This document shows positions 4,613 through 7,564 of a stretch of 64,000 nucleotides of DNA, piece by piece. The stretch is from contig NZ_QUOK01000005.1 of assembly GCF_003390325.1 (NCBI RefSeq), positions 62,001-126,000 of the forward strand. The letters are read 5' to 3'. Under the pieces are notes generated by a model that was not told the origin of the DNA, did not search any database, and saw only the letters and a list, made by a program, of their open reading frames with translations. Every line of letters begins with the position of its first letter. Position 1 is the first letter of the stretch. Made by a program: the position numbers and the translations under genes. The stretch is from Rhodohalobacter sp. SW132. Lineage in GTDB: Bacteria; Bacteroidota; Rhodothermia; Balneolales; Balneolaceae.

Positions 4613-5320
4613 TCATTGGATAAGTCTAAGTCCCCAAATCATTGCCAAGCCGGTGAGTATCGCTATAAAAAAACTGAGAAGCGTACCGATCAAAATGTAC
4701 TCTGTCAGTTTTCGGTCCTCAGATCGGCTCAAGTCACCGAACCTGAATACGCTTTTGGCGGCAAGCAGGAATCCAATCACCGACAGGTTTGATGTAAGCA
4801 TTGCGATAATAATAAAGAGCCGCTCAAGAATACCAATATATGTTCCCGCTCCCCTTAGAGTCCCGTCATCATTTGATTCAAACTGTTGACTCCACCCCTG
4901 CATGAACCGCTGTATGATGATAGCTGCTGGATAGGTGACAAACAAAACGCCGGTTAAGACAACCCAAATTGTATTCACCGGTACATCAACCATTGAAAAT
5001 TCCCAGTAGAAACTCCAGACCAATAATAAAATAGTCAGATGAGCAAGTTGGTCGATCGTAAACCACCGCAACTGGGTTTCTTCGCGCTGGAATGTAAGTT
5101 TTATGCCATCAATTACAAGATGAGTTCCGGCGATGAAAAGCGCAACAGACCAAACCGACCAATTCCAAAGCACCCCCATTATTAACAAAAAATGAATGAG
5201 CGAGTGTACCCAAAGCCAGGGTGATCTCCATTTTCTCTCATTTTTGTCTTTAATCCAGCTTTTTGGCTGGAGGATAAAATCCCCTACAAGGTGCGCTAAA
5301 AGTAATTTTACAAGTATCAT
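4613..5320 (-). CDS. DUF3307 multi-pass membrane protein
   Basis: The family's opening motif is plain: LLLAHLVGDFILQPKSWI, followed by HSLIHF and the THLVIDGIKL helix with conserved His and Asp. The 235-residue protein has five or more hydrophobic segments, spread from the N-terminus to ILIGTLLSFFIAILTGLAMI at the C-terminus. The biochemical function of DUF3307 is unknown. The gene starts 13 bp after satD on the same strand, and the two families often occur as a pair. It therefore probably belongs to the SatD regulon and is controlled by the palindromes upstream of satD. The conserved His/Asp in membrane segments could bind metal or form a catalytic site; that is inference. Confidence 0.85.
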   Translation of the reverse strand: MILVKLLLAHLVGDFILQPKSWIKDKNERKWRSPWLWVHSLIHFLLIMGVLWNWSVWSVALFIAGTHLVIDGIKLTFQREETQLRWFTIDQLAHLTILLLVWSFYWEFSMVDVPVNTIWVVLTGVLFVTYPAAIIIQRFMQGWSQQFESNDDGTLRGAGTYIGILERLFIIIAMLTSNLSVIGFLLAAKSVFRFGDLSRSEDRKLTEYILIGTLLSFFIAILTGLAMIWGLRLIQ

Positions 5321-5333
5321 CCCTACGAGACTT

Positions 5334-5954
5334 TCAATTATATTCGTTATTTAACTTATCCCTGAAATACTGCTCTAACTCAATAATCTCATGAACGGAA
5401 CCTCGCTTAATCCTTTCATTTACAGTTGATTGAGCAATTCCCAGTTTATCCGCAATATCTGTTTGAGTAATCCCGGGTTCGCTAAACAGTAATTCAGATA
5501 CTTCGGCCGTTTTACTCGTCCATGAATTCATAATCACCAGGGCGAGCTTAAACATCAAATTTAGTTCTTTATTTATACTTTCACTGGGTGTTCGGATGCC
5601 CAGATGGACATTTTCTTGTTTCAATTCATCCAGAAGCGTACCCGAGTACACAAAGGCATCTCCACTCGATTCGCTTATGTACCCCTCCCTGTACCCTCGT
5701 TCTCCTACACCTATCGAAAGTCTTACATCAAGTTTTTTGTGGTTTAACTTTTTGATGATTGATTTAATGACAATCGCCACACGCAGTGCATCTTCAGAAT
5801 TTGCTTCAAGCTGGAAACTATCACCCCGGTATATTTGCCAATCTGTTGGAGTTTCTCCCAGGCTTTGAAACCATTTTTTTAGCGGATCCATCCAGATTGA
5901 TGGATTACTAACGGTTTGTGATTGAACTATATCTCCTGTTATGGTGGCGATCAT
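5334..5954 (-). CDS. satD: SatD family protein: cyclase-like domain plus C-terminal HTH
   Basis: This 206-residue protein matches the SatD family. Its N-terminal part (1-120) has TGDIVQS at residues 6-12 (Asp8), IYRGDSFQL at 41-49 (Asp45), an amphipathic helix, DVRLSIGVG at 76-84, and a SSGDAFVYSG segment at 96-105. That order resembles class III nucleotide cyclase or GGDEF palm domains, with both metal Asp positions kept but the usual transition-state Asn and Arg of cyclases absent. Residues about 158-183 (PGITQTDIADKLGIAQSTVNERIKRG) form a clear helix-turn-helix. It starts at the ATG at 5954, directly behind three palindromes that are probably its own operators. DUF3307 follows 13 bp downstream. 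The cyclase comparison is my own reading and no activity is claimed. Confidence 0.82.
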   Translation of the reverse strand: MIATITGDIVQSQTVSNPSIWMDPLKKWFQSLGETPTDWQIYRGDSFQLEANSEDALRVAIVIKSIIKKLNHKKLDVRLSIGVGERGYREGYISESSGDAFVYSGTLLDELKQENVHLGIRTPSESINKELNLMFKLALVIMNSWTSKTAEVSELLFSEPGITQTDIADKLGIAQSTVNERIKRGSVHEIIELEQYFRDKLNNEYN

Positions 5955-5960
5955 ATCTCA

Positions 5961-6041
5961 ATATCGTCTTTTTAAACGATATTTTCAAATTATCGTCTAA
6001 TTTAACGATAATTATCTATTATCGTGTAATAGGACGATAAT
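5961..6041 (-). promoter_or_regulatory. three phased palindromic operators upstream of satD
   Basis: Three copies of ATCGT-N8-ACGAT lie upstream of the satD start: 5962-5981 (TATCGT/ACGATA), 5991-6010 (TATCGT/ACGATA), and 6018-6041 (ATTATCGT/ACGATAAT). Their centres are 5971.5, 6000.5 and 6029.5, so the spacing is exactly 29 bp both times. The spacers differ in sequence, so the conserved part is the half-sites rather than a simple tandem copy. Dimeric HTH binding and autoregulation by the SatD protein are inferred. The promoter itself is not clearly visible inside the AT-rich stretch. Confidence 0.75.
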
Positions 6042-6085: not shown

Positions 6086-7564
6086 CTATAACAGTGTTTT
6101 TTGATTCCCATATGTATCTAAGTACTGTTTCAGTTTCACTTTTTTACGCGTACTATTGCTGGTCATATAGCGCAGCTTCCCAAAGATCGGCCGCTCCTGC
6201 CAGGCGCGGTCAAACCGCCCGAAACACCAGAAAATTCCCGAGTAACTATTCGGATCGCGTCCATCAATAGCGTATGTGTTATTGAGATCAATAAGATATT
6301 GAAGGGCTGTTCTGTGGTCAGGTGTCCACTCAATTACTTTCTTTCCCCAAAGCATCCGCAGGTAGTTATGGATGATACCATCCTTGCGCAGCTGAGTTTG
6401 TGCAGCATTCCAGATATCATCACCTGTCTGCGCATTTTCCAGCTCTTCGTATGAGTAGATATGTTCCCGAGGATCATCTTTATGCTCTTCCATCGTTTTA
6501 AGAGCCCAATCTGGCAGGCTTTCATACGCATCATAATCCTTGCGATGGTGAGCAAAATGAAACCCGACCTCGCGCCAGGTGATCACCTCATCCAAAAAAC
6601 CATCGATATTCGGATCGCCATTAAAAAAACCGCCAGTGGATCCTTTATTGAACGAAATTTTATCCAGGTCCCACCCTTCTGGCTGATGCTGAAGAACCGC
6701 ACGAACAATTTCGTACTCAGAAATTTTTCCAAAGTGGAGCCAGGGACTCAGTCCGCTTGTTATATTTTCATCGGGATGATTCCGCTTCTCGTCGTATACA
6801 TGCAATCCGTTCCGTATAAAACTGCCCAGTTTTCCGGTGGCTGCAGACCGTGCCCCATTCATTTCCACCGGATGCACATCATGATTGATTTCGAGTCCGG
6901 AAATAAAATCGGGAATGGAATTCAGGGCATCTTCAGCATCCGGCAGATTGCTGAAGGTGGATCCATCAAGTTCAATCGATTCCCTGTTTTCAAGATCATC
7001 CAGGGGATTTTGCCGAGGCGGATTTGTATACGCTTCGATAAAATTCTTCTGCATGATCTTGCGGAAAAAGTAGGCGCTGTAGGGATCTTTATCGGTGAGA
7101 CCGAGCGGTATCAAACCGTTACTGTCAACCGTGTAGTATGGAATTTTCAGCTCATCCGGGTACGTTTCATTTCGTTTCCGCATGATAAATACGGGGTATT
7201 CATCGGTTACCAAAACTGAAGCTTTCGAAGAGAGTTTCCGAAGAAGATTGTCGTACTGACCCGGTTCTGCCTCAACAAAGGAGACGTAATTGAGATCCTG
7301 TTCCCGGGCATAATTGAGATGTTCTTTCATCCCCTGCATCATAAAGGTGTGGGAACGGTCTGTAGCCCAGGGATAATCACACGAGAAAGCTTCGAGTATG
7401 AGAAGCGGCTTGTTCAATTTATTTGCCCAGCCTACTGCATATTCGAGGGCAAAATTGTAGTGAAACCTTCTGTTAATCTGCATCCAGTAGAGTACGTACT
7501 CTCCCTCTGCGTTTGGTTCGGTTTGATTACGTGGAAAGACCCGATCGCTATTGAAATTTTTCAT
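6086..7564 (-). CDS. phr: class II CPD photolyase (deoxyribodipyrimidine photo-lyase)
   Basis: This flavoenzyme uses blue light to split cyclobutane pyrimidine dimers. The 492 residues match class II photolyases: an N-terminal Rossmann-like antenna domain (VLYWMQINRRFHYNFAL, then PLLILEAF), the SPWLHFGKIS helix, and a C-terminal FAD domain with DEVITWREVGFHF, WNAAQTQLRKDGIIHNYLRM, WGKKVIEW and the DGRDPNSYSGIFWCFGRFDR segment. The HNYLRMLWGKK motif separates class II from class I enzymes. It lies 41 bp downstream of the AI-2E permease gene on the same strand, and satD follows after a 131-bp gap holding the three operators. Confidence 0.95.
   Translation of the reverse strand: MKNFNSDRVFPRNQTEPNAEGEYVLYWMQINRRFHYNFALEYAVGWANKLNKPLLILEAFSCDYPWATDRSHTFMMQGMKEHLNYAREQDLNYVSFVEAEPGQYDNLLRKLSSKASVLVTDEYPVFIMRKRNETYPDELKIPYYTVDSNGLIPLGLTDKDPYSAYFFRKIMQKNFIEAYTNPPRQNPLDDLENRESIELDGSTFSNLPDAEDALNSIPDFISGLEINHDVHPVEMNGARSAATGKLGSFIRNGLHVYDEKRNHPDENITSGLSPWLHFGKISEYEIVRAVLQHQPEGWDLDKISFNKGSTGGFFNGDPNIDGFLDEVITWREVGFHFAHHRKDYDAYESLPDWALKTMEEHKDDPREHIYSYEELENAQTGDDIWNAAQTQLRKDGIIHNYLRMLWGKKVIEWTPDHRTALQYLIDLNNTYAIDGRDPNSYSGIFWCFGRFDRAWQERPIFGKLRYMTSNSTRKKVKLKQYLDTYGNQKTLL

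Follow-up and report, generated by a model that had tools for sequence, protein, structure and literature searches.

The window, by which we mean the whole 64,000-nucleotide stretch of DNA analysed here, carries on its minus strand a satD gene (5334–5954) whose open reading frame runs from 5954 to 5334 and encodes a protein of 206 amino acids, the plus strand of the same interval being full of stops. The product was assigned to SatD by Pfam (PF16264, 33.0 bits against a curated cut-off of 29) and its predicted fold combines a cyclase-like palm with a helix-turn-helix (HTH). The palm domain occupies residues 1–124 (5583–5954, minus strand), as delimited by fold, profile match and conservation, and includes the two metal aspartates D8 (codon 5931–5933) and D45 (codon 5820–5822) as well as S12 (codon 5919–5921), all on the minus strand. 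The HTH spans residues 147–185 (5400–5516, minus strand) and was placed by Pfam and by covariation, the latter weaker in the window's own subfamily; the HTH_24 match itself covers residues 154–184 at 34.2 bits, above its cut-off, and bears out an HTH that an earlier note, made from the sequence alone, had put at residues 158–183. The motifs that the note had read in the palm, TGDIVQS (with D8), IYRGDSFQL (with D45), DVRLSIGVG (residues 76–84) and SSGDAFVYSG (residues 96–105), are all present at those residues. Residue 176 (codon 5427–5429, minus strand) corresponds in alignment to the residue that reads the operator base in the satE-type subfamily. A second SatD is encoded elsewhere in the same genome and the family is spread over Bacteria and Archaea; we know of no function for SatD or DUF3307 beyond the historical label 'secretion and acid tolerance'.

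Thirteen bp past satD lies, on the same strand, the gene for a membrane partner of 235 amino acids (4613–5320), recognised from its open reading frame, Pfam, a model and its pairing with satD. Residues 1–118 of the partner (4967–5320, minus strand) form a DUF3307 module according to Pfam (PF11750, 105 bits) and conservation, and residues 119–235 (4616–4966, minus strand) a constant C-terminal membrane domain marked by G163, E166-R167, K189, R193, Y208, G212 and S216. On the other side of satD, a predicted operator site of the form TATCG-N10-CGATA (5962–5981) is followed by a second (5991–6010) and a third (6020–6039), each 29 bp from the one before and none assigned to a strand, and all three lie in the stretch that separates satD from the upstream gene, whose end is at 6086. 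That upstream gene (6086–7564, minus strand) encodes a 492-amino-acid photolyase/cryptochrome-like protein which scored below both Pfam cut-offs.

Predicted fold and metal site of SatD

An AlphaFold2 model of SatD, based on an alignment of 39 relatives, reached a pLDDT of 96.9 and showed the element order E H E E H E E H E in the N-terminal half, followed by an all-helical HTH part. The earlier note had read the N-terminal half as a cyclase-like palm and had suggested structure prediction and a PDB search as a check; the fold recovered was not an unrelated one, the best Foldseek matches being palm/cyclase proteins led by Csm1/Cas10 (9g9g, E 1.3e-4), with GGDEF domains, a light-regulated adenylyl cyclase, PycC (7r65), Ma1120 and Rv1900c among the further top matches and Y-family polymerases and GTP cyclohydrolase III also represented. 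TM-scores were moderate (about 0.4 by query and up to 0.5 by target) and just one PDB match had E < 0.001; given these TM-scores SatD would be a divergent member of the palm/cyclase fold. A search against viral folds gave weak matches only (best E 0.046).

Comparison of profiles led to the same group of proteins. Using sequence only, the SatD profile matched the PDB chains Ma1120, 3mr7 and DosC over the N-terminal half (E 0.02–0.08), and in profile–profile comparison the palm reached 91% (E 1e-6) against class III cyclases from the window's bacterial family and 64% against GGDEF domains, where class III cyclases and GGDEF domains matched each other at 17% and none of 40 column-shuffled controls exceeded 3%. 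The GGDEF set was taken from the window's phylum because the genome itself encodes no GGDEF (PF00990) protein. In the profile alignments D8 and D45 were paired with the metal aspartates of the cyclases, and homology of the SatD palm to class III cyclases is supported by these sequence comparisons.

Conservation was assessed, with weighting, across 155 distinct SatD proteins from Bacteroidota, Gamma- and Alphaproteobacteria, Chloroflexi, Verrucomicrobia, Spirochaetes, haloarchaea and others. D8, G44 and D45 were each conserved at 100%, S12 at 99%, G98 at 98% and R78 at 95%, whilst F47, Q48, G84 and W145 each reached 92%; D8, S12 and D45 were also kept in all 19 proteins of an independent set and in four plasmid copies from enterobacteria and pseudomonads. 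The family alignment that the earlier note had proposed for D8 and D45 thus found both essentially invariant, as its claim that the two metal positions are retained would predict. The transition-state Asn and Arg of cyclases, which the note had reported as missing, are replaced by V102 and T106 in the window protein, and the corresponding positions are not conserved among the 155 proteins; a conserved A..R, shifted by one residue, occurs in the two other subfamilies and S-G in the window's own. No conserved Lys, as in the base-selecting Lys/Asp pair of cyclases, precedes the GD hairpin, in a region where the alignment is remote. The GG[DE][DE]F signature is absent from the window protein, which reads RGDSF, and Pfam gave no PF00990 match. 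Since the metal pair is invariant and the Asn/Arg positions are not, the alignment indicates that the metal site is under strong selection, and cyclase-type catalysis by SatD is not supported. Judged from its conserved residues, SatD is on balance expected to bind a nucleotide.

Operator arrays and the recognition helix

Palindromic sites like those of the window recur upstream of satD, with motifs that differ among the three subfamilies and a spacing of 28–29 bp in all three. AACC-N5-GGTT dyads were found upstream of 53 of the 87 satE-type satD genes (0.3 expected), TATC-N12-GATA dyads upstream of 16 of 42 DUF3307-type genes (0.2 expected) and TTCA-N7-TGAA dyads upstream of 11 of 26 short-type genes (0.4 expected). 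A test that assumes no motif gave the same periodicity, with exact 7-bp repeats at a lag of 28 or 29 in 109 of 155 satD upstream regions as against a mean of 5.8 and a maximum of 13 in dinucleotide shuffles and at most 11 at other pairs of lags. Repeats at these lags were retained in 50 of 78 representatives sharing <50% identity (at most 9 in shuffles), and the lag of 28 was seen in 13 of the 19 independent loci; in about 30% of satD loci no exact repeat was detectable at either lag, 28 or 29. Harmonics at 56–58 were present upstream, and the satD coding sequence had no such peak.

The only array in the 5.08-Mb genome of the window is the one at satD, alongside 15 single sites elsewhere, and paired sites of the window type occur in eight of 394 Bacteroidota genomes, all eight of which carry a SatD-DUF3307 pair. 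Across these 394 genomes 13 of 16 array matches lie at satD and a reversed control pattern gave none; the three window-type arrays located away from satD could point to a larger regulon. Two genomes of one related genus have such a second array (L334 1501–1549 and L335 1501–1549), in each case just 3' of genes for similar lipoproteins, and the third (L332 1501–1548) lies upstream of a short lipoprotein-like reading frame in a seemingly mobile region. Paired AACC-N5-GGTT sites, searched as a sign of further regulon members, were no more frequent than their control. One such pair, its sites 29 bp apart (L341 1501–1542), stands before a reading frame (1596–2204) for a metalloprotease-like membrane protein with a HEAGH motif, in a genome that also encodes a SatD of the satE type. 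Matches to sigma-70-like promoters over the window array were not above chance.

The recognition helix of the HTH covaries with the operator sites in the satE-type subfamily. In 82 satE-type loci, residue 175 (numbering of locus L003; 176 in the window) tracked the outer base of the half-site with a z of 17.9, the highest of 204 columns, the next column reaching 8.0. Arg was paired with G (0.87), Lys with C (0.89), Val with T (0.62, otherwise A) and Gln with A (0.57, otherwise C). The scan of contigs was run with the satE-type subset, the wide SatD alignment having proved too divergent. Arg–G was found in Ignavibacteria, Gammaproteobacteria and Verrucomicrobia, and recurrence of the same pairs in different phyla makes shared ancestry alone a poor explanation. 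Because a residue of the recognition helix covaries with the outer operator base in this sister subfamily, SatD almost certainly binds the palindromes upstream of its gene. A recognition code was not upheld for the window's own subfamily, where, in 32 loci, base 4 of the half-site shared most mutual information with residue 180; this covariation is only suggestive and was not cleanly separated from that of palm columns.

The membrane partner and its distribution

A partner gene lies directly downstream of satD on the same strand in 150 of 162 loci, most commonly with a 4 bp overlap (68 loci). Among the 12 loci where none was detected, four have 276 bases or fewer before the contig end and another four do have a partner, read from a longer start than was permitted in the search. 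The association also holds in the opposite direction, SatD lying upstream of 19 of 20 DUF3307 genes drawn from those not found via the Pfam SatD model; SatD proteins linked to DUF3307 often score below the cut-off of that model and many are missed by it. The one tested DUF3307 gene lacking a SatD (L327 2053–2751) has a degenerate C-terminal domain with altered K..R and EYxLIGTLLS motifs, in keeping with an association of SatD with the C-terminal domain in particular.

Three types of partner were distinguished, whose C-terminal halves are one homologous domain (hhalign 98.2–99.9%). Between the two long types the N-terminal halves show no clear relationship (23%), and the short type lacks this half altogether. 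Eight residues of the C-terminal domain (G163, E166, R167, K189, R193, Y208, G212 and S216) were invariant in 44 partners, and the domain lies outside every Pfam and NCBIfam model; a fold search of the PDB with the partner model gave no match. The DUF3307 half has a conserved set of H10, D14, Q18, H39, H67, D71, D90 and H94 which, from its composition, could form a metal site. A reading of DUF3307 as a YdjM-type membrane hydrolase (PF04307) was rejected (hhalign probability 0.3%). Along the SatD tree the partner type switches 8 times, as against a mean of 59 when shuffled, and distances between palms correlate with those between partner C-terminal domains (r 0.67 overall and 0.86 within the DUF3307 type); several genomes, that of the window included, encode two pairs of different types. 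The constant partner of SatD is thus the C-terminal membrane domain, and DUF3307 is one N-terminal variant. The earlier note had proposed that the HTH controls a DUF3307 membrane protein, of which the HTH as DNA-binding output and the control of a membrane gene are supported, and DUF3307 as such gives way to the C-terminal domain as the constant partner. The note makes no mention of the operator array, from which the action of the HTH can be read.

SatD is patchily distributed (78 of 394 genomes). The neighbours of 20 chromosomal pairs were mostly housekeeping genes, and strong PADLOC matches near these pairs were no commoner than at sites 100 kb away. With the PADLOC models themselves, Pycsar and CBASS included, SatD gave just weak HTH matches and the partner none. 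Plasmids with SatD are few; plasmid-borne pairs were seen in haloarchaea, Vibrio, Segatella, Sphingomonas (beside CBASS-type genes) and Enterobacter (beside Gabija), and the pair is the sole evident cargo of plasmids of 3.77–4.4 kb in E. coli (pEC34A) and Klebsiella. The 3770-bp pEC34A encodes a SatD and a DUF3307 protein (L224 1765–3481) and nothing else of evident cargo; Klebsiella plasmids carry SatD copies 93.6% similar to its own, and blastn found no relatives of its pair in E. coli genomes. None of the phage records searched for the pair carries SatD. Overall, satD and its partner fit a portable, self-contained module of regulator and membrane protein. For many satE-type hosts the name or the source points to a salt-loving organism (Halorientalis, Haloplanus, Fodinibius, Saccharospirillum, Halospina, Haliea and others), which may reflect sampling bias.

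Proposed mechanism and known systems

Computation having established the fold, the invariant aspartate pair, the near-obligate pairing, the operator arrays and the recognition covariation, we favour as probable a reading in which SatD is an autoregulator with a palm of the metal/nucleotide type and an HTH that acts on the operator array to control the membrane partner. The palm, class III cyclase-like and with its metal Asp pair kept, would probably bind a metal-nucleotide and serve as a sensor, an oligomerisation domain or both. The HTH would bind the palindromes spaced 28–29 bp apart in its own promoter and so set expression of the two-gene operon of satD and partner, presumably as a repressor rather than an activator. 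SatD dimers may fill the operator ladder side by side, the palm supplying both a response to ligand and the contacts that fix the spacing, and assembly along the array is quite likely to be cooperative. The constant C-terminal domain of the partner would be a likely site of docking or feedback, the chances of SatD docking on it directly being about even.

Several other readings share part of this evidence. With the regulator gene first and coupled to a second, an apparently autoregulatory operator array at its own promoter, insulated paralogous pairs within one genome and small plasmids that carry only the pair, the locus resembles a toxin–antitoxin module, in which SatD, as the antitoxin and a repressor of its own operon, would neutralise a membrane partner that is a toxin or growth regulator. 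We consider this unlikely, however, as a plain antitoxin would not be expected to keep an invariant metal site throughout Bacteria and Archaea, the chromosomal copies have stable positions amid housekeeping genes and the partner is a multi-helix protein of 230–250 amino acids with a conserved H/D/Q set. Patchy occurrence in 78 of 394 genomes and plasmid copies adjoining Gabija and CBASS-type genes would suit an anti-phage defence cassette on mobile elements, but the housekeeping neighbourhoods, defence matches no more frequent than 100 kb away, the few plasmids and the absence of the pair from the phage records make this quite improbable.

The nature of the palm separates the remaining readings. 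It might be an unrelated regulatory domain of ferredoxin-like type (ACT/RAM) with no more than a resemblance to cyclases, as the modest Foldseek scores (TM by query about 0.4, one match with E < 0.001) and the missing cyclase-specific catalytic residues could suggest; the profile matches (91% to class III and 64% to GGDEF, with 17% as yardstick and 3% as null), the invariance of the aligned Asp pair and top fold matches to palm/cyclase enzymes render this very improbable indeed. At the other extreme SatD could be an active cyclase or synthase and gate the membrane partner through its product in a Pycsar-like manner, the HTH adding transcriptional control. The cyclase fold with its invariant metal pair and a single constant partner domain with interchangeable N-terminal modules are compatible with such signalling, and the invariant E-R, K, R and Y of the partner could bind an anionic ligand, but the cyclase Asn/Arg positions are not conserved and neither protein matches Pycsar or CBASS models, so that we regard it as doubtful. 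A bolder version, to which we give similarly little credence, would have SatD make a new nucleotide product in register on the 28–29-bp ladder, with the product or the bound state read by the E-R/K/R/Y membrane site of the partner; a single small protein, conserved between E. coli plasmids and haloarchaea, would then combine a synthase, a switch of transcription and the control of a membrane effector.

Returning to the autoregulator reading, the SatD family gains from this analysis a predicted fold with an invariant metal site, probable DNA targets and a residue-to-base code, and its membrane partner a conserved domain yet unnamed in Pfam and NCBIfam. Since pEC34A is a natural 3.77-kb E. coli plasmid, the role of the module is testable in E. 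coli. Should nucleotide binding hold, an autoregulator would do its sensing directly through a class III cyclase-like domain, of which the literature searched gave no other instance. In that open literature mention of SatD was confined to an annotation (PMC10326533) and mention of DUF3307 to a table of phage genes (PMC8504454), and the SatD fold, metal site, operators and partner domain were not described in the papers found, which are those other than the original sat-operon report.

Among known systems, the sat operon of Streptococcus mutans (Kremer et al., 2001, as cited in PMC4275253) is connected by PF16264, Pfam placing the window SatD in the same family. DUF2652, whose function is not known and which remote homology has placed in the class III cyclase fold (PMC4886424), is a different family from SatD; its proteins are described there as single-domain with potential cyclase residues and, unlike SatD, with no HTH, operator array or membrane partner. 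Type II toxin–antitoxin operons are likewise autoregulated two-gene operons with the DNA-binding gene first (binding by SatD being predicted), whereas SatD has a cyclase-like palm and its partner is a large multi-helix membrane protein. Pycsar (PycC with PycTM) also pairs a cyclase-fold protein with a membrane protein, but SatD has in addition an HTH and operators, and neither of its two proteins matches the Pycsar models. The palms of GGDEF diguanylate cyclases and Cas10/Csm1 have the fold in common with SatD, and sister SatD subfamilies even have a GDEF-like hairpin, whilst the window SatD lacks the GG[DE]EF motif and has a weaker profile match to GGDEF (64%). Closest are the class III nucleotidyl cyclases (PF00211; Ma1120, Rv1900c and PycC), which share with SatD the palm fold, the DIxxS strand, the GD hairpin, the VRxGI strand and the metal aspartates, and from which SatD differs in dispensing with the transition-state Asn/Arg and in possessing an HTH, an operator array of its own and an obligate membrane partner.
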